From: Verrucomicrobiia bacterium
GTDB lineage: Bacteria; Verrucomicrobiota; Verrucomicrobiia; Opitutales; Opitutaceae
Direction of reading: 5' to 3'
DNA: 10,486 bases
Assembly (NCBI GenBank): GCA_030424825.1
Contig: JAUHWE010000105.1
Coordinates: forward strand, 1 to 10,486
Both the position numbers and the translations under genes were made by a program. Shown here in pieces: positions 1 through 7,139 of this stretch; within the stretch, counting starts at the first letter, position 1; each line of letters starts with the position of its first letter. The notes beneath the pieces are model-generated. The model saw only the letters and a program-made list of their open reading frames with translations, did no database searches and was not told where the DNA came from.

Positions 1-990
1 GGTTGGCTGGACGAGGCGGAAGTAGGAATGATCGATCGCGGGGCACCCGATGCGGAGCAAATTTTCAGTGATGTGTACCAACAGGTTTCTCCCGCCATTG
101 AGCCTCTGTTTTTTGAACTATTCGAAAAATTTGAGGATGTGGCTAGTAAGGTAGATCCGGAAGAAGCATCGGTCCACAAAGCGTTTGCCCGGCGAGAACT
201 GCATCCGCTCACCCTGTGCTCGCCCTTCGTCGATCGGTCGTATTCAAAGCCTTTGGGCTATGCGGGCGACTATGAAATGGTCAATATGATGCTCTTGGAG
301 TCGACAGAAAAGCCGACTGGATTGTATGCTAAAATTGTGGATACCTATCACATCAATGCGGCTGCTCCGTTGGCTCATCGAAACCGCATTGTGATGCTCA
401 AGGCGCGTTTGAAAGAAGAAGCGGAACGCGTGGTGGAGGAAGAGCAGCGGCTTCTAACCGTACTTAATGTTGGCTGTGGACCCGCATCGGAAATTCGTCG
501 ATTTATTCGAGAGGAAGCGATTTCGGCTCAAACTTCATTCAAGTTGATGGACTTCAACGTGGAAACCCTAAACTTTGCTCAGGTAAAAGTGGGCGAGGCG
601 ATATCGGACAGTGGTCGCAAACCGATGATCGAGTTTGTCAACAAGTCGATCGACGAGTTGCTCAAAGAAATTCAGCAGGAAGCGGCTTCAGGTGGTGAGC
701 AGTACGATATGGTCTACTGCGCAGGATTGTTCGACTATTTTTCCGATGAAATTTGTAAGCGACTGGTGGCCCTCTTCTATAGCTGGACCCGTCCGAACGG
801 ACTGGTGACGGTAACGAACGTCCACGCCTGTAACCCAAACAAGAATCTCATGGAGCATTTGCTTGAATGGTATCTTGTTTATCGTGACGAAGCGGATATG
901 GAAAAACTAGCGCCGCATGGAACGGACTTCAAAGTTGTTGGTGACGAGACAAACGTTAATGTTTTTCTGGATATACGCAAATCGGATTAA
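1..990 (+). CDS. PhcB-like SAM-dependent methyltransferase (probably 5'-partial)
   Basis: Predicted class I methyltransferase of the family that includes PhcB, which methylates 3-hydroxy fatty acids to make the 3-OH-PAME/MAME quorum signals of Ralstonia. Numbering from the ATG at 28, the glycine-rich SAM motif is LNVGCGP (146-152), the acidic SAM-ribose motif LMDFN lies at 173-177, and motif YDMVYCAGLFDYF at 226-238. Before the Rossmann core is a family-typical block, ELHPLTLCSPFV (57-68) and KPLGYAGDYEM (74-84). The frame is open to the window edge (codons GWLDEAEVG precede the ATG), and many relatives carry an extra N-terminal domain, so the true start may lie outside the window; ATG 28 is the first internal candidate. 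The stop overlaps the kinase start as TAATG, indicating a shared operon and coupled translation. The family assignment is fairly sure; the substrate is inferred from family and neighbours. Confidence 0.8.
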   Translation, partial: GWLDEAEVGMIDRGAPDAEQIFSDVYQQVSPAIEPLFFELFEKFEDVASKVDPEEASVHKAFARRELHPLTLCSPFVDRSYSKPLGYAGDYEMVNMMLLESTEKPTGLYAKIVDTYHINAAAPLAHRNRIVMLKARLKEEAERVVEEEQRLLTVLNVGCGPASEIRRFIREEAISAQTSFKLMDFNVETLNFAQVKVGEAISDSGRKPMIEFVNKSIDELLKEIQQEAASGGEQYDMVYCAGLFDYFSDEICKRLVALFYSWTRPNGLVTVTNVHACNPNKNLMEHLLEWYLVYRDEADMEKLAPHGTDFKVVGDETNVNVFLDIRKSD

Positions 991-992
991 TG
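988..992 (+). promoter_or_regulatory. TAATG stop/start overlap (translational coupling)
   Basis: The methyltransferase stop TAA (988-990) shares its last A with the ATG (990-992) of the sensor kinase. No good Shine-Dalgarno sequence precedes this ATG, so the kinase is probably translated by ribosomes terminating on the methyltransferase, tying signal synthase and sensor levels together. Confidence 0.7.
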
Positions 993-3620
993 ATTAGATT
1001 GGGAAAAGTTCAAGACGAGTTTTTAGACGCGTATAAACTTGAAGACGCAGACCTGAGGCTCCGTCGATATCGAATTGCTTGCGTCCTCTCCCTTGTGGGA
1101 ACGGGTTCCGGCGTTACGCTGGATTACATCGTAAATCCACAGCTACTGTGGCCTCTGGTCCTAGTCCGGTTTACCGCGGTTTTGGCAATATTCATATTGT
1201 TTTTGGTTGCTCAAACTCGATTTACGAGATCGAGGATCGTCCTTTTCAACTTCGTTTGGGCGATGACAGTCAACGCTTCGATCTGCGGGATGGTTTACGT
1301 GACGGGGGGTGCCGTATCGCCCTACTATGCAGGGCTCAATCTCGTGATACTTGCGGCAGGTGTATTGCTGCCGTGGACCCTTGTCGAAACGCTGGTTGTT
1401 TCAATGGCAACGCTCACCATGTACGTGCTCACTTGTGTCGTCTGGGGGTGGGCTCAAAGTCAGGCGGTGGGTTGGAGCCTATTATTCAGCAATGGTTTCT
1501 TTGTCTTTCTGACTGGCCTCATCAGCACGACCTCAAGTCACTTCACGACTCAAGCGCGTATCCGTGATTTCAATCTTAGAAACGAATTGGATTCGCGGAA
1601 CAAGGAACTTGAAGACCTAGATCGATTGAAATCGCAGTTTTTCGCCAACGTAAGCCATGAGTTGCGAACGCCGCTAACCTTAATATTGTCTCCGATCCAA
1701 GACTTGCTCCAGTTACCGGAAGCTCTCTCAGATGTGGCCTCTAAGCATCTTCGAACTGCCCGGGACAACTCCTTGCGATTATTGAAGCTCGTGAACGACC
1801 TGCTTGAAGTGATCAAATTGGAGGAAGGAAAAGCGAGTCTGGAAATCCGCAAGGTCGACTTGAATGCCTTCCTGCGAAGCATGGTCGATTCGATGACTCC
1901 GATGGCTGAGCCACGTGGGATTTCCCTAGAAAAGGATTTCGCCTCGACACCTTTGTACGTTCGAGCGGACTCTTACGCTCTCGAGCGAATCGTTTTGAAC
2001 TTGCTGAGCAACGCCATTAAATTCACCCCTGAAGGGGGTTCCATAACGGCTCGAACTACCCGATTGGATGAAATGGCTCAACTGGAGATAATGGATACCG
2101 GAATCGGAATATCCGAAGAGGATCTGCCACGAATTTTTGAGCGGTTCCAGCAAGTGGACGGTTCCAGCACTCGTCGGTATCAAGGTAGTGGATTGGGGTT
2201 GGCCTTGGTCAAAGATCTCTCAGAGAAAATGGGGGGTGCCATTTCTGCCCAAAGCAAACCCGGTGAAGGTACCGTAATGACGATTAGATTGCCATTAACC
2301 GATGATAGCGCTGAGGCCGTCAACGGGATCGATACGTTATCGGAGCGAAGTGATTTCCTGGAGACGATCCATCAAACTGCGGAACATCGTGCGGCCTTGC
2401 CGCTTAGCTCACCCTTTGAAGAACTGGAATCACGGTTTAGCGCGGGTACAGGACCCACTCTCATGATCGTCGATGACGAGCCTGACATGAGACAGTATCT
2501 GGTCAGCTTTTTGGACTCTGAGTATCGCATATCGCAGGTACGAGACGGGAAGCAGGCGCTGACTCTCGCGAGAAATGTTCATCCTGACCTTATGCTTCTG
2601 GACTTGATGTTGCCGGAAATGGATGGGCACGAGGTGTGTCGCTTGCTTAAGGAAGATCCGCAAACGCGCAATATTAGGATTGTGCTACTCACAGCTCGTG
2701 TCGACGAAGGGGCTAAACTGACTGCTCTGGAAAATGGTGCTGATGATTTTCTGACAAAGCCATTTAGTCGATCAGAGGTGGAGACTCGACTTCGCAATCT
2801 TCACGAAAAATCTCGTTTGGAATCTGAATTGAATGACCGGAACCGGGATTTGGAGATTGCGCTGAATGAGTTGAAAGATGCCCAATCCAGCTTGGTGCGT
2901 AGTGAAAAATTGAATGCTCTTGGCGGTCTCTCTGCCGGATTGCTTCATGAAGTCAATAATCCGCTTAACTATGTAATCTCAGCGATCCAGTTGGCACGGA
3001 TGGAATCTGCCGTACGTGAGAACAGGAATTTGAGGGAGTATTTTGACGATATAGACGAGGGGATCGGGCGTATACGAAATATTGTATCCGATTTGCATGC
3101 CTTTGCTCATCCTTCGGAGTTCGATAAGCAAAAAGAGTTTTGCATGTCTGACGCCATCGATAGCGCTTTGCGGTTCACTGCAAGCGAGTGCAAGGGAATA
3201 CAGATTACTAAGGCGGTGACGAGCGATAGTTCAATTGTCGGCTCTGAGGGGCACATTGTGCAGGTATTAATCAACCTGTTGTCCAATGCGGCAAGTGCCA
3301 TCAAGGAATTGAATTCGGAAAAACCAGGTGAGATTTCTATCAAAGCGGAGCGTTTAGATGATCAATTAAGAGTCAGTGTAACAGATAACGGTGCGGGCAT
3401 GAGCATTGAGACTAAGGAAAGGGTGTTCGAGCCGTTTTTTACCACCAAGGATGTGGGAGGAGGAATGGGGCTTGGGTTGAGTATTTGCCATACCATCATT
3501 AAAAGTCATGGGGGACAAATCCAAATCCAGAGCGTCGAAGGAGTGGGATCCGAATTTACTCTAAATCTCCCACTGGTCCAAGAGCGAATGCTTGATGGCA
3601 AGGCTTTGAATGCTGTCTAG
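990..3620 (+). CDS. PhcS-like membrane hybrid sensor kinase with two kinase modules
   Basis: An 876-residue inner-membrane sensor. Residues 28-185 hold about six hydrophobic helices (near 28-48, 52-74, 83-104, 110-130, 132-154, 160-181) with short loops and no large periplasmic domain, which suits a lipophilic ligand sensed in the membrane. Module 1 has the H-box SHELRTP with His223, an N-box around 335-341, G1 DTGIG (369-373) and G2 GSGLGL (399-404). A receiver follows, with acidic pocket Asp495/Asp496, phosphoacceptor Asp538, Thr568 and Lys590. After a coiled coil (605-640) comes a second, NtrB-type kinase with HEVNNP (His653), N-box NLLSNA (762-767), G1 DNGAG (799-803) and G2 GGGMGLGL (823-830). 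All catalytic motifs look intact. It follows the methyltransferase directly, as phcS follows phcB in Ralstonia. The ligand is inferred; orphan sensing of another cue is possible. Confidence 0.88.
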   Translation: MIRLGKVQDEFLDAYKLEDADLRLRRYRIACVLSLVGTGSGVTLDYIVNPQLLWPLVLVRFTAVLAIFILFLVAQTRFTRSRIVLFNFVWAMTVNASICGMVYVTGGAVSPYYAGLNLVILAAGVLLPWTLVETLVVSMATLTMYVLTCVVWGWAQSQAVGWSLLFSNGFFVFLTGLISTTSSHFTTQARIRDFNLRNELDSRNKELEDLDRLKSQFFANVSHELRTPLTLILSPIQDLLQLPEALSDVASKHLRTARDNSLRLLKLVNDLLEVIKLEEGKASLEIRKVDLNAFLRSMVDSMTPMAEPRGISLEKDFASTPLYVRADSYALERIVLNLLSNAIKFTPEGGSITARTTRLDEMAQLEIMDTGIGISEEDLPRIFERFQQVDGSSTRRYQGSGLGLALVKDLSEKMGGAISAQSKPGEGTVMTIRLPLTDDSAEAVNGIDTLSERSDFLETIHQTAEHRAALPLSSPFEELESRFSAGTGPTLMIVDDEPDMRQYLVSFLDSEYRISQVRDGKQALTLARNVHPDLMLLDLMLPEMDGHEVCRLLKEDPQTRNIRIVLLTARVDEGAKLTALENGADDFLTKPFSRSEVETRLRNLHEKSRLESELNDRNRDLEIALNELKDAQSSLVRSEKLNALGGLSAGLLHEVNNPLNYVISAIQLARMESAVRENRNLREYFDDIDEGIGRIRNIVSDLHAFAHPSEFDKQKEFCMSDAIDSALRFTASECKGIQITKAVTSDSSIVGSEGHIVQVLINLLSNAASAIKELNSEKPGEISIKAERLDDQLRVSVTDNGAGMSIETKERVFEPFFTTKDVGGGMGLGLSICHTIIKSHGGQIQIQSVEGVGSEFTLNLPLVQERMLDGKALNAV

Positions 3621-3650
3621 AACGGCGTATTGAATTAACGAATATAACGT

Positions 3651-3655
3651 AAGGA
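3651..3655 (+). promoter_or_regulatory. Ribosome binding site AAGGA for the response regulator
   Basis: AAGGA sits nine bases before the ATG at 3665 in an A+T-rich 44-base gap. It is the clearest Shine-Dalgarno site in the signalling cluster and supports the ATG at 3665 as the start of the response regulator. Confidence 0.6.
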
Positions 3656-3664
3656 AATTTTATA

Positions 3665-4798
3665 ATGGAAAACGATTTATCAGAAATGGGTATCTTATTA
3701 GTGGATGACGAGGCTCAAACGCTGAAGTATTTTCGTCGCGCTTTTGAAAAGCAGTTCCGAATATTCACGGCGACTAGTGCGGATGAGGGGATAGGTATTC
3801 TACAGGAGAATTCCGAAAGTATCGCGATTCTTATTACAGACCAGCGCATGCCGGAAAAGCGAGGGGTGGAGCTCTTGAAGTATGCCAAGAACGAGTATTC
3901 GGATATCGTTCGCATTCTTACGACGGGCTATACGGATTTAGAGGAGGCCATTGATGCTGTAAATAGTGGTGAAATCCATCGCTATATTACGAAACCCTGG
4001 GACTTGAGCGCCTTGCAGTTGGAACTGAGGCAATCGATGCAGTTCTTTCTGATTCGGCGTGAACGGGACGAATTGCTACGCGAAAAACTCAGCGCAAGGC
4101 AAAGACTGGAAGGGCTTAATCGCATTAGGGAACTGGTTACAATGGCTAGCGGGTTTACGGCGACGCAGCACCCTTTGCTCGCAGTTCAGTTGTTTATCGA
4201 GCAAATTCCAGTGACGACGGATAACCTAAGCGGCAAAAGTTTGAGTGGATGGAATCAGGTTATCAGCGATATTGAGAAGATCTCGACCATCTGCTCCAGT
4301 GTCGCGGAAGCGCTCGAAGCGAGGGGTGCTAAGCCGTTTACATCCGTGTCTTTGGATGCGCTTTTTTTGAAGCCTATTTTCAAAGAATCTGGGAAAACTC
4401 TGACCGTTGAGGTGGGAGAATTGGGTCCCGCAACGGTAGAGGCGAACCTGGAGCTGCTGGAATTAGCGTTTGGCGCGATTCTGGATTGGGTTTCAAATGC
4501 GTCCGATTCGGGCGGAATAGTCGTCAGCTGCCAAGACCAGGATGATCAGCTGCGGATCCAATTGCAGGTAGAGGGTGGTGATTGGGGGAAGACAACGATT
4601 CTAGATTTTCCGGCAGGATTGCTTGGGGCCTATTTCGTGTGTGCCCATCATTTAGGAAGCTTAATGATCGGGACGCAAAAAGATGGGGTTTTCACTATCT
4701 CAGTTGAGCTTCCCAAGAAACACTCTGGAAATCAGCCCGAAGCGTCACCCGACTTATCTTGGCTTGAGCGAGTGCTGCCGAAGTTCGAAAATTGGTAA
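3665..4798 (+). CDS. PhcQ/PhcR-like response regulator with degenerate kinase domain
   Basis: A 377-residue soluble protein. The N-terminal receiver is complete: Asp14/Asp15/Glu16, phosphoacceptor Asp59 in TDQRMP, Thr87 region, and Lys110 in YITKPWD. A helical linker (about 118-155) leads to a kinase-shaped C-terminal half that has lost its working residues. The dimerisation helix reads MASGFTATQHPLL (160-172), where active relatives have a His-Glu-x-x-Asn-Pro motif. The N-box reads AILDWVSNA (271-279), with Trp275 at the Mg-binding Asn position, and no DxGxG or GxGLGL loops follow. It is therefore probably a phospho-acceptor that works by binding partners, not by phosphorylating them. The receiver is clearly paralogous to that of the next gene. 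There is no DNA-binding domain. It lies 44 bases after the sensor kinase on the same strand, with a plausible RBS. The family link to PhcQ/PhcR is inferred. Confidence 0.85.
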   Translation: MENDLSEMGILLVDDEAQTLKYFRRAFEKQFRIFTATSADEGIGILQENSESIAILITDQRMPEKRGVELLKYAKNEYSDIVRILTTGYTDLEEAIDAVNSGEIHRYITKPWDLSALQLELRQSMQFFLIRRERDELLREKLSARQRLEGLNRIRELVTMASGFTATQHPLLAVQLFIEQIPVTTDNLSGKSLSGWNQVISDIEKISTICSSVAEALEARGAKPFTSVSLDALFLKPIFKESGKTLTVEVGELGPATVEANLELLELAFGAILDWVSNASDSGGIVVSCQDQDDQLRIQLQVEGGDWGKTTILDFPAGLLGAYFVCAHHLGSLMIGTQKDGVFTISVELPKKHSGNQPEASPDLSWLERVLPKFENW

Positions 4799-4799
4799 A

Positions 4800-4817
4800 A
4801 TGGGTATCGAAACCCAT
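4800..4817 (+). promoter_or_regulatory. Intergenic hairpin ATGGGT-loop-ACCCAT
   Basis: A perfect six-base inverted repeat with a six-base loop (ATCGAA) starts just after the response-regulator stop codon. No T-run follows, so it is not an intrinsic terminator; it may be an mRNA processing or stability element or an operator. It is short enough to be partly chance. Confidence 0.35.
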
Positions 4818-4834
4818 ATGATTTGGTGATTTTG

Positions 4835-4853
4835 GAATCGCTTCGAACGATTC
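4835..4853 (+). promoter_or_regulatory. Hairpin GAATCG-loop-CGATTC beside the start codon at 4857
   Basis: A perfect six-base stem with a seven-base loop (CTTCGAA) ends three bases before the ATG at 4857, in the place where a ribosome binding site would lie. It would block initiation at 4857 if formed, or leave 4908 as the working start. A role as a protein-binding dyad is equally possible. Confidence 0.35.
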
Positions 4854-4856
4854 TTC

Positions 4857-6464
4857 ATGCAAACTGGAGTTCTTGAATCACAGAGATTTCCTATTTTCCA
4901 TAGCCTAATGCCCCCTATTCCAGACTTCAAAATTCTTTACGTCGATGACGAGGCCAAGTCGTTGAGGTACTTCAAAAAGATCTTTTCGTCTGACTTTAAT
5001 ATTGTGACGGCGGAGTCTGCCGAAGAGGCGTTGGAGATTTTGGGGCAGCCAAATGCAAATATAGGGGTATTGGTGTCGGACCAGCGGATGCCTGTGATTA
5101 CAGGGGTGGAGCTAATCCAAAGAGTTCGTGCCCAATCGCCTGACATTGTGTCCCTGTTGATCACAGCGTTCATGGACTTGGATGTTGCGTTGGAGGCGAT
5201 AAACGAAGGACGCATTTTTCAGTACATCTGCAAACCTTGGAGCACGGATTCGCTAAAGATCGTGTTGCTCGAAGCGGCCCAAACCTATGAGCGCAAAATG
5301 TATTGCGAGGCCCTCGAGGAGAAAAATAGCAAGCTGGAAGAGGCCCGCCGCGTTCAGGACCGATTTATCTACACGTTGAGCCATGAGGTGAGGACACCGG
5401 TTGGCTTGTCTCTGAACTGCTCCGAGGAGTTGCTCGAATCCTCGCTGACTCGAAGGCAGCGGGATTACGTCACGTCCATCAAGGTTCTCAACCAGAGTCT
5501 GCTAAGTGTTTTGGACAACACCTTGGACTACTCGATGTGGGAAGCAGGGAAGCTGAGGCTTTACGAACGGAAATTCCGCCTCTCAGAGCTACTCGAGCGA
5601 GTCGAGCAATCTTTCAGGCCCCAGTTTAAGGCCGCGGGGGTGAAATTCGTCATGGAGTCGGAAGCGGGGATCCATGATTGCGTCGTCGGTGATCCAGACC
5701 GGGTGAGCCAGGTTCTCATTAATCTGTTGAGCAATGCGATTAAGTACTCGGCGGCAGGTAAGGAAATTCGGCTTGGTATCAAGGTCTTGGACGAAAGTGA
5801 AGAACAGCTGAAGCTGCGGTTTTTCGTGAAGGACCAAGGGGATGGCATCGCGCCCGCGATTAGAGACCAATTGTTTAAGCCGTTCTCGCAGTTGCACACC
5901 GGGAAGGAAGGAAATGGTCTCGGACTTCTAATTTCAAAAGAGCTCGTGACTCTCATGGGCGGGGAAATAGGAGTGGATAGCGAGACCGGTAAGGGATCAG
6001 AATTCTGGTTTGAAGTTGATTTAGGAGTTTGCGAGGTGACATCGGATTCCGAAACTTCATTCGACGAGTCTCGCTTCGTCGATAGCGTAGCGGTTTTGCT
6101 GGCGGATGACAGCGCTGTAGGGAGGGCCATGGTCGATGGACTGCTTTCCAAAAAGGGTTATCGGATTGATATTGTCGATGATGGCGTTCAGGCGGTTGAA
6201 AAAGCGAAGCTGAATCGGTACTCGGTCATTATTTTGGATTGCCAAATGCCGGAAATGAACGGTTTGGATGCCACGAAAGCCATCAGGGATGAAGGCTTGA
6301 ACCAAAGCACTCCGATTATTGGCTTAACGGCCATGCCCGCCAGCTTGCTCGAAGACCGGTGGAGAGAGCTGGGATTAGACGAGTACGTAACGAAACCTCT
6401 GGATGGTAGAAAATTTCTGGATACCGTTTTTCGTCTAGCCTGTGCGGAAGCTAATCTAAAATAG
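4857..6464 (+). CDS. PhcR-like receiver-kinase-receiver hybrid protein
   Basis: A soluble hybrid of up to 535 residues. Receiver 1 has Asp30/Asp31, phosphoacceptor Asp75 in SDQRMP, and Lys126 in YICKPWS. After a coiled coil (145-168) the kinase has H-box LSHEVRTP with His176, N-box NLLSNA (289-294), G1 DQGDG (326-330) and G2 GNGLGL (352-357). The C-terminal receiver 2 has Asp417/Asp418, Asp461 in LDCQMP, Thr491 and Lys513. Ralstonia PhcR is likewise a response regulator with a histidine-kinase C-terminus; the second receiver is an addition. No transmembrane helix is seen. Start choice is uncertain: ATG 4857 is the longest frame, but ATG 4908 (Met18) puts the receiver at nearly the same distance from the N-terminus as in the paralogue upstream, and neither has a Shine-Dalgarno site. 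It could relay phosphate between the sensor and an unlinked HPt or regulator; that is inference. Confidence 0.87.
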   Translation: MQTGVLESQRFPIFHSLMPPIPDFKILYVDDEAKSLRYFKKIFSSDFNIVTAESAEEALEILGQPNANIGVLVSDQRMPVITGVELIQRVRAQSPDIVSLLITAFMDLDVALEAINEGRIFQYICKPWSTDSLKIVLLEAAQTYERKMYCEALEEKNSKLEEARRVQDRFIYTLSHEVRTPVGLSLNCSEELLESSLTRRQRDYVTSIKVLNQSLLSVLDNTLDYSMWEAGKLRLYERKFRLSELLERVEQSFRPQFKAAGVKFVMESEAGIHDCVVGDPDRVSQVLINLLSNAIKYSAAGKEIRLGIKVLDESEEQLKLRFFVKDQGDGIAPAIRDQLFKPFSQLHTGKEGNGLGLLISKELVTLMGGEIGVDSETGKGSEFWFEVDLGVCEVTSDSETSFDESRFVDSVAVLLADDSAVGRAMVDGLLSKKGYRIDIVDDGVQAVEKAKLNRYSVIILDCQMPEMNGLDATKAIRDEGLNQSTPIIGLTAMPASLLEDRWRELGLDEYVTKPLDGRKFLDTVFRLACAEANLK

Positions 6465-6530: not shown

Positions 6531-7139
6531 ATGGCTAAGTACAAGGACAGGCGATCCGTAGATATGCAGATCATGCGCGACTGGGTGGAGCCCGGTTCTC
6601 GCGTCCTCGATCTGGGTTGCGGTCGGGGCGTGCTGCTTGAATACCTTAAACAAACGAGACAGACAGAAGGTGTGGGGGTCGATCTAAGTCCCGAGAAGAT
6701 TCACGACTGCGTCAAGCGGGGACTATCCGCATATCTTGGCGACATGATGGATTTTATGGGCTCGTTCCCCGACAACCATTTCGACAGGGTAATTTGCTCC
6801 CGTACGTTGCAGGAACTGGATAGCCCAGCCAAGGTAATCCGTGAGGCGTTGCGCGTGTCGCAAAACTTGACTATCGGGTTTGTCAACTTCGCCTATTGGA
6901 AAAACAGAATAAGCATGTTGCTGCATGGTCGTAGATTGGAGAATGAAGTGTATCCAACGAATTGGGCTGATTCGCGACGAGGCAATCCCCTTTCGGTTAG
7001 GCAGTTCGAGTCCTACTGTAGAGACCAGAAAATCCACATAGCCCGGAAAGTGTTTTTGAGGGGTGACTGGAAACGTGAAACGACACTGGCCCCAAACTGG
7101 TTTTGCGGCTACGCGATCTACGATCTGAGTTCGGGCTAG
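6531..7139 (+). CDS. metW: MetW-like methyltransferase-fold protein, methionine biosynthesis
   Basis: A 202-residue protein close to the usual MetW size. MetW acts with MetX in the homoserine acylation step of methionine synthesis in bacteria that lack MetA; its precise role is a partner or activator function. The SAM-fold motif is VLDLGCGRG (25-33), the acidic residue after strand 2 is Asp51 (GVGVDLSPEK), and the family hallmark block reads CSRTLQEL (89-96), where classical MetW has SQTLQ. The following FVNFAYWKNRISMLLHGR segment (117-134) also matches the family pattern. The start at 6531 has a weak AGGA 12 bases upstream. It shares the strand of the signalling genes with a 66-base gap but is functionally linked to metX, which converges on it tail to tail with a four-base overlap. 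A generic SAM methyltransferase is the alternative. Confidence 0.85.
   Translation: MAKYKDRRSVDMQIMRDWVEPGSRVLDLGCGRGVLLEYLKQTRQTEGVGVDLSPEKIHDCVKRGLSAYLGDMMDFMGSFPDNHFDRVICSRTLQELDSPAKVIREALRVSQNLTIGFVNFAYWKNRISMLLHGRRLENEVYPTNWADSRRGNPLSVRQFESYCRDQKIHIARKVFLRGDWKRETTLAPNWFCGYAIYDLSSG

Follow-up and report, generated by a model that had tools for sequence, protein, structure and literature searches.

A polyketide synthase-linked PhcB–PhcS locus in Verrucomicrobiota as a candidate methyl-ester signalling operon

The closest described relatives of the locus reported here are the phcBSRQ clusters of Ralstonia and Cupriavidus, which serve quorum sensing by 3-hydroxypalmitic acid methyl ester (3-OH PAME) or 3-hydroxymyristic acid methyl ester (3-OH MAME). 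According to the available excerpts of the papers cited, autophosphorylation of Ralstonia PhcS at H230 is required for PhcA activation (PMC11960443), and Ralstonia PhcQ acts by binding PhcA and keeping its stability (PMC13320629). For Cupriavidus, the names PhcR and PhcQ are applied here by gene order and domain layout, following the description of Ralstonia (PMC8578825). A published survey of Proteobacteria, in the part available, called the phc cluster restricted to Betaproteobacteria, and excerpts of open-licence literature on Phc or quorum sensing outside Betaproteobacteria yielded only a palmerolide study. Here we describe a Phc-like cluster in a 10,486-nucleotide stretch of DNA (the window), which is the entire contig C573 (JAUHWE010000105.1) of a metagenome-assembled genome (MAG; GCA_030424825.1; 5.04 Mb, 811 contigs, completeness 89%, contamination 5.5%) classified in the Opitutaceae of the Verrucomicrobiota. 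An earlier note on this DNA had read it as a Phc-like quorum-sensing operon outside its usual host group. We somewhat favour the view that the window holds the 3′ portion of an operon for making and sensing a signal, PKS-phcB-phcS-phcQ followed by a response regulator/histidine kinase (RR/HK) gene, in which a polyketide synthase (PKS) would build an acid that PhcB would methylate and PhcS would sense.

The assignment of the first gene to the PhcB methyltransferases, already made in the earlier note, holds. Its product is 44% identical over 323 residues to PhcB of Cupriavidus necator (L068), and in a tree of PhcB proteins those of Cupriavidus and Paraburkholderia lie inside the set of relatives (SH-like approximate likelihood ratio test, SH-aLRT, of the outgroup split 94), so that it groups with them and not in a clade of unrelated substrate. 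The loci compared are the best 80 of 197 PhcB relatives, of which the tree omits 14 (near copies or fragments). Methyltransferases encoded on plasmids of Rhizobium, Pantoea, Pseudanabaena and Enterobacter were set aside as close relatives because they are too distant (24–28%); four of them served as the outgroup on which the tree was rooted by choice. Pfam gives the window protein weak class I methyltransferase matches, all below cut-off. Some relatives already carry the label 3-hydroxypalmitic acid methyl ester biosynthesis protein in databases, so no novelty attaches to the family assignment.

The window's phcB is open at the left contig end, and the earlier note had proposed extending it leftward. 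A search of the same genome with full-length PhcB gave matches at no more than two sites, one in the window and one at an end of C797, a contig of 6,260 bases; PhcB residues 1–130 are encoded there (L084:5870-6259). Judged by alignment with relatives, about a dozen PhcB codons are missing between the two contigs. The remainder of C797 is a single 5′-open frame coding for 1,943 residues, with its stop 37 bases before phcB. Its domains were assigned from alignment to the full-length PKS of locus L001, which in Pfam reads ketosynthase (KS), acyltransferase (AT), dehydratase (DH), enoylreductase (ER), ketoreductase (KR) and acyl carrier protein (ACP), and from a DH match of its own. The four-gene operon proposed earlier must accordingly be revised, the start lying outside the window with a PKS ahead of phcB. 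It could also be that C797 and C573 are not genomic neighbours and that their association is a coincidence of assembly or binning, as separate contigs in a MAG of the stated contamination, with no exact end overlap of 10–60 bases, would allow. This we regard as highly improbable, because C797 ends within phcB and bears the missing N-terminus, the genome having no third PhcB match, and because a PKS followed by phcB is found on single contigs in 16 relatives, one of which (L006) has the gene order PKS-B-S-gene3-gene4-metW-metX, the same as around the window. A second PKS-type dehydratase match of this genome (G000:C449:8530-8976, in an open frame of 1849 aa) is on a contig without phcB.

The PKS lies 2–60 bases upstream of phcB in 16/80 loci (L001–L016, starts being taken from the longest open reading frame (ORF); in L008 it is in frame-broken pieces). 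Two of these carriers, Puniceicoccaceae bacterium K14 (L002) and Coraliomargarita sp. SDUM461004 (L015), are probably isolates, as their records bear no MAG label. No such PKS is present in 60 of the other 64 loci, those with at least 1,500 bases upstream; in L033, L034, L060 and L078 the upstream sequence does not suffice for a judgement. Together with the window, the 16 PKS loci form one PhcB clade (17 rows, SH-aLRT 99), and KS Cys/His/His, AT Ser, DH His/Asp, KR Ser/Tyr and ACP Ser are found in all 16 PKS rows (15 loci and our own genome, L008 being left out). As read from its domains, the gene before phcB is a highly reducing type I PKS with conserved catalytic residues. In trees of the PKS and PhcB from the same 16 rows, a Coraliomargarita-type group and a Spartobacteria/Terrimicrobium-type group are common to both. 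The PKS-type operon of L004 is in a MAG labelled Gammaproteobacteria and is nested among Opitutia, by transfer or by misbinning.

A synthase of another type was found before phcB in G320, from a different Verrucomicrobiota lineage. This 2,603-residue protein has the order FAAL-ACP-KS-AT-cMT-KR-ACP (FAAL, fatty acyl-AMP ligase; cMT, C-methyltransferase) and its gene overlaps the phcB start by 29 bases, as placed by the longest ORF; downstream of phcB follow phcS and, 373 bases on, a TonB-dependent receptor as the next long ORF. Since KR is present and DH and ER are absent, the synthase would be expected to extend a fatty acid by one round, methylate it at the alpha position and reduce it to a 2-methyl-3-hydroxy acid, which would be near the acids that PhcB is known to esterify.

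In the window's order, whose phcB carriers were placed in an order-level PhcB tree, five of the seven genomes without a PKS beside phcB belong to genus g202, which is also home to the genome with the L001 operon, and their PhcB is of another clade (39–42% identical to that of L001). Because the phcB carriers of g202 are thus one with a PKS-type PhcB and a PKS and five with an other-clade PhcB and none, the PKS tracks PhcB clade rather than host. The other two, G1159 and G1138, are discussed below. The order-level tree combines 29/80 loci with survey loci, omits 13 named loci and has zero-distance pairs that seem to be the same genome (L132/L007, L134/L016 and L135/L005). One could still assume a plain Phc system. 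The substrates of PhcB would then be ordinary 3-hydroxy fatty acids supplied by primary fatty acid synthesis, as in Ralstonia, and the PKS product would be unrelated and merely co-regulated. The 60 loci in which PhcB has no such PKS adjacent would be explained in this way, as would conserved PhcB motifs common to rows with and without PKS; however, two different PKS types placed tightly ahead of phcB, the tracking of PhcB clade by the PKS, and the altered motifs and long branch of the PKS-less near relative G1159 (one row) are harder to reconcile with it, and we consider it unlikely, though a plain Phc system is the strongest of the alternatives.

The pairing of phcB with phcS reaches beyond the PKS loci. 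An S-like ORF lies directly behind phcB in 77/80 loci, and the contigs of the other three (L055, L073 and L074) end 425, 357 and 680 bases after phcB, so that a kinase relative is present in 77/77 loci with enough downstream sequence; homologues never linked to kinases, which would have spoken against the earlier note, are thus not what was found. Kept in 77/80 loci, the adjacency is not due to chance. As labelled, the 80 loci are from Verrucomicrobiota (37), Pseudomonadota (39, comprising 19 Beta-, 10 Gamma- and 6 Alphaproteobacteria and 4 unassigned), FCPU426 (2) and Planctomycetota (2). Genome surveys by PhcB profile A1, which share some genomes with the 80-locus set, found phcB in 22/387 Verrucomicrobiota genomes (S adjacent in 21/22), 9/343 Planctomycetota genomes (S in 9/9) and 2/369 Gammaproteobacteria genomes (S in 2/2). 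The PhcB–PhcS system is rare and patchy, yet it crosses phyla. A PKS with a tailoring methyltransferase and local regulators is a common layout of secondary-metabolite clusters, and the locus could be one of these, PhcB methylating a PKS lipid or natural product while the kinases sense another cue and only regulate the cluster. That no output gene is known and that the genome has four helix-turn-helix matches of LysR, the family of PhcA, would fit such a cluster. Conversely, the PhcB–PhcS pairing is kept across phyla without such a PKS, and 11 columns of the PhcS sensor keep their residue in 95% or more of 74 rows, which makes a secondary-metabolite cluster rather improbable in our view.

The cluster in the window and the gene that follows it comprise these features:

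1..990, + strand: C-terminal 329 residues of a phcB-like methyltransferase, truncated by the left contig end (ORF, similarity, tree)
990..3620, + strand: phcS-like sensor kinase, long form, with membrane sensor, first kinase (HK1), receiver (REC) and second kinase (HK2) (Pfam, alignment)
1656..1658, + strand: H223, putative HK1 phosphoacceptor His (by alignment), in a domain missing from Burkholderiales PhcS rows
2601..2603, + strand: D538, putative phosphoacceptor Asp of the internal receiver (by alignment), in a domain missing from Burkholderiales PhcS rows
2946..2948, + strand: H653, HK2 His, aligned with H231 of Cupriavidus PhcS (alignment)
3665..4798, + strand: phcQ-like gene, receiver (D59) and C-terminal part without H-box or Pfam match (Pfam, pattern, receiver tree)
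4857..6464, + strand: PhcR-like REC-HisKA-HATPase-REC hybrid (D75, H176, D461), outside Burkholderiales PhcR in the receiver tree (Pfam, tree)
6531..7139, + strand: metW-like gene, 66 bases 3′ of gene 4 (match score 162 bits, under the 189.5 cut-off)

ORF calls and the junction sequence bear out that the four genes lie together on one strand and that the first two overlap as TAATG; the spacings S-Q, Q-R and R-metW are 44, 58 and 66 bases. The flanking genes named earlier, metW/metX, yebC and yidC (its C-terminus), are also there, the metW-like match being the one below cut-off. They had been taken to point away from Burkholderiales, and this is borne out by the nearest PhcB relatives (L001–L008, 55–68% identical), which are Pelagicoccus, Puniceicoccaceae, Opitutaceae and Opitutales records and one MAG labelled Gammaproteobacteria. 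Because they are mainly Opitutales-group records, the host is an Opitutales-type member of the Verrucomicrobiota.

PhcS had been described as a six-helix membrane kinase. By hydropathy, residues 47–178 contain seven hydrophobic windows that overlap, which is compatible with six helices and is not a helix count. The single kinase of Burkholderiales PhcS is not what the window encodes: Pfam finds HisKA and HATPase twice each with one receiver in between, so that the protein is a double kinase enclosing a receiver domain. Cupriavidus PhcS aligns to it with a gap at HK1-REC, its H231 falling opposite H653, and 49/172 positions of the sensor and 95/221 of HK2 are identical (HK2 also 42% over 255 residues). 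An alignment of S proteins holds 75 rows for the 80 loci, five loci being without a pick, two (L070 and L077) in a wrong frame and seven incomplete. Among its 66 classifiable rows 47 are of the long form and have the phosphosite residues H, D and H (L020 and L024 are truncated), and 19 are short, with sensor and HK2. The short rows are from 16 of the 19 Betaproteobacteria loci (the other three falling outside the classifiable rows) and from three loci of Verrucomicrobia subdivision 3 (L027, L043 and L049), whose PhcB adjoins that of the long-form locus L044 in the PhcB tree. The short form thus seems to have arisen at least twice, reading the direction of change as long to short, and this suggests that the PhcS studied experimentally would be one without the HK1-REC module that most relatives carry.

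The third gene had been taken for a receiver with a degenerate kinase. The receiver is confirmed as the sole Pfam match, and the tail has no H-box by pattern; the gene is PhcQ-like and stands in third place. Its receiver part has its best Cupriavidus match, 45% over 161 residues, in the fourth gene there (the PhcQ position), and its full-length match is the fourth gene of Salinisphaera (380 aa, 35%). In a tree of 60 receivers from 30/80 loci it falls in a 24-row set (SH-aLRT 96) that holds Burkholderiales PhcQ, with Burkholderiales PhcR outside; the set is mixed, including also gammaproteobacterial third genes and Hyphomicrobium receivers. Because gene 3 is PhcQ-like, the cluster order is B-S-Q. 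In gene 4 the receiver-kinase hybrid stands as REC-HK-REC (two receivers, HisKA and HATPase in Pfam), outside the PhcR group: its receiver clusters with other Verrucomicrobiota (5 rows, SH-aLRT 99), apart from Burkholderiales PhcR. As a PhcR orthologue it was rejected on this tree, the likeness being one of REC-HK layout (26% over 385 aa). The stated match to the gene content of Ralstonia phcBSRQ therefore holds for PhcB, PhcS and PhcQ, by similarity and linkage, and fails for the gene order and for gene 4. Pfam finds no DNA-binding domain in gene 3 or gene 4.

PhcB is predicted to carry an N-terminal domain of PilZ fold. It was folded alone because Foldseek/VIA-align with the whole PhcB model returned the methyltransferase part; the predicted barrel (predicted local distance difference test, pLDDT, 80.9) has PilZ structures as its top structural matches and resembles MrkH, PP4397 and YcgR in fold at 13% identity, and L001 PhcB has no Pfam PilZ match. 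PilZ proteins bear the motifs RxxxR and D/NxSxxG, and neither is evident, judged by eye, in the N-terminus in alignment A2; the modelled fold would fit cyclic di-GMP input through PhcB. No description of a PilZ-fold domain in PhcB was found in open-licence literature, where the PilZ mentions in the excerpts of PMC10576176 and PMC10667535 are pil gene names and a general mention. Other PhcB-like proteins occur in further settings. A conjugative plasmid of Paraburkholderia graminis (L081:7584-11959) carries a phcB-like gene, a gene for an ATP-binding protein in the place of phcS and two response-regulator genes, and the module may therefore be mobile. G217 encodes a 685-residue PhcB-like protein with an N-terminal response-regulator receiver, followed by a phcS-like kinase (L118:2089-4146). 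Candidatus Anammoximicrobium (L020, about 8 to 11 kb) has a tandem phcB-like pair with phcS after the second, and two more, weaker phcB matches in its genome. A portion of an Enterobacter ludwigii plasmid PKS (L085:6628-9765) shows remote similarity to PhcB (25% across 71% of the query) and is perhaps a fused counterpart.

If the PKS-phcB-phcS-phcQ-RR/HK genes are transcribed together, the iterative, highly reducing PKS would build a fatty-acid-like chain on its ACP, a thioesterase would release it as a free acid, and PhcB would methylate its carboxyl as Ralstonia PhcB does on 3-hydroxy fatty acids. The methyl ester would then leave the cell and accumulate, and the membrane sensor of PhcS would bind it and feed a relay from HK1 (H223) through REC (D538) and HK2 (H653) to the receivers of PhcQ and the hybrid regulator; PhcQ, without a DNA-binding domain by Pfam, would act on a partner. 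We infer the identity of the signal and its cell-density function from the genes, and the signal may be other than 3-OH PAME or 3-OH MAME. Release from the ACP, export and output are the weakest steps. Several observations weigh against the proposal. No thioesterase domain is present in the L001 PKS (its neighbours were not searched systematically), and the genome, at its estimated completeness, has one phosphopantetheinyl transferase match (PF01648), of AcpS-like length. In the window's subclade (L001, L002, L003, L006 and our own genome) the ER carries a changed cofactor motif, and products there may therefore be less reduced. L005 is placed differently in the PKS and PhcB trees (L006 and L013 being unsettled), and C797 and C573 are unjoined in the assembly. 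The second PKS type is that of one genome, in an order of 6 genomes where phcB is in G320 only. In the window's order phcB is patchy (18/372 genomes), and the 18 carriers divide into 11 with a PKS beside phcB and 7 without. Two of these seven, in genus g234 (G1159 and G1138), have a PhcB that falls within or close to the PKS clade; phcB of G1138 is interrupted by a contig end, and PhcB of G1159 is a long branch inside the clade that has lost A1-invariant residues, for example in the KPLGYAGDYEMVN and CAGLFDY stretches, which, for one sequence, fits PKS loss with decay or change of PhcB.

A wider generalization, which we put forward tentatively and rate at somewhat short of even, is that PKS-built methyl-ester autoinducers may constitute a separate class of signals in Verrucomicrobiota. 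Two or more PKS types would have been recruited before the same PhcB–PhcS pair, the chain builder being interchangeable and perhaps tuning a private dialect, and esterification and sensing being fixed; the Ralstonia system would then be a reduced form with chains from primary metabolism and a shortened PhcS. The operon itself would take Phc-kind signalling well past Betaproteobacteria and offers Verrucomicrobiota a candidate cell-to-cell signalling system open to experiment; a quorum-sensing receptor family tied to a dedicated PKS would make signal structure predictable and searchable.

Among known synthases, the mycobacterial Pks2 (phthioceranic/hydroxyphthioceranic acid synthase, NF041183) gives the longest NCBIfam match of the L001 PKS (residues 17–2096), which is not Pks2 itself because it scores 1055 bits against a cut-off of 2400 bits; it shares KS-AT-DH-ER-KR-ACP with iterative highly reducing type I PKSs and, unlike Pks2, precedes a signal-type methyltransferase and a kinase. 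The Lqs system and PhcX, an LqsR-family response regulator, are similar, as far as the excerpt of PMC10653808 describes them, in that receiver proteins occur close to a sensor kinase and to the enzyme that makes the signal, whereas the signal synthase of the window's operon is PhcB-type. With Ralstonia and Cupriavidus phcBSRQ the operon shares adjacent PhcB-, PhcS- and PhcQ-like genes on one strand and an HK2 His aligned with that of Cupriavidus PhcS; it differs in the PKS ahead, the order B-S-Q, a gene 4 outside the PhcR group, the extra HK1-REC of PhcS and the host phylum.

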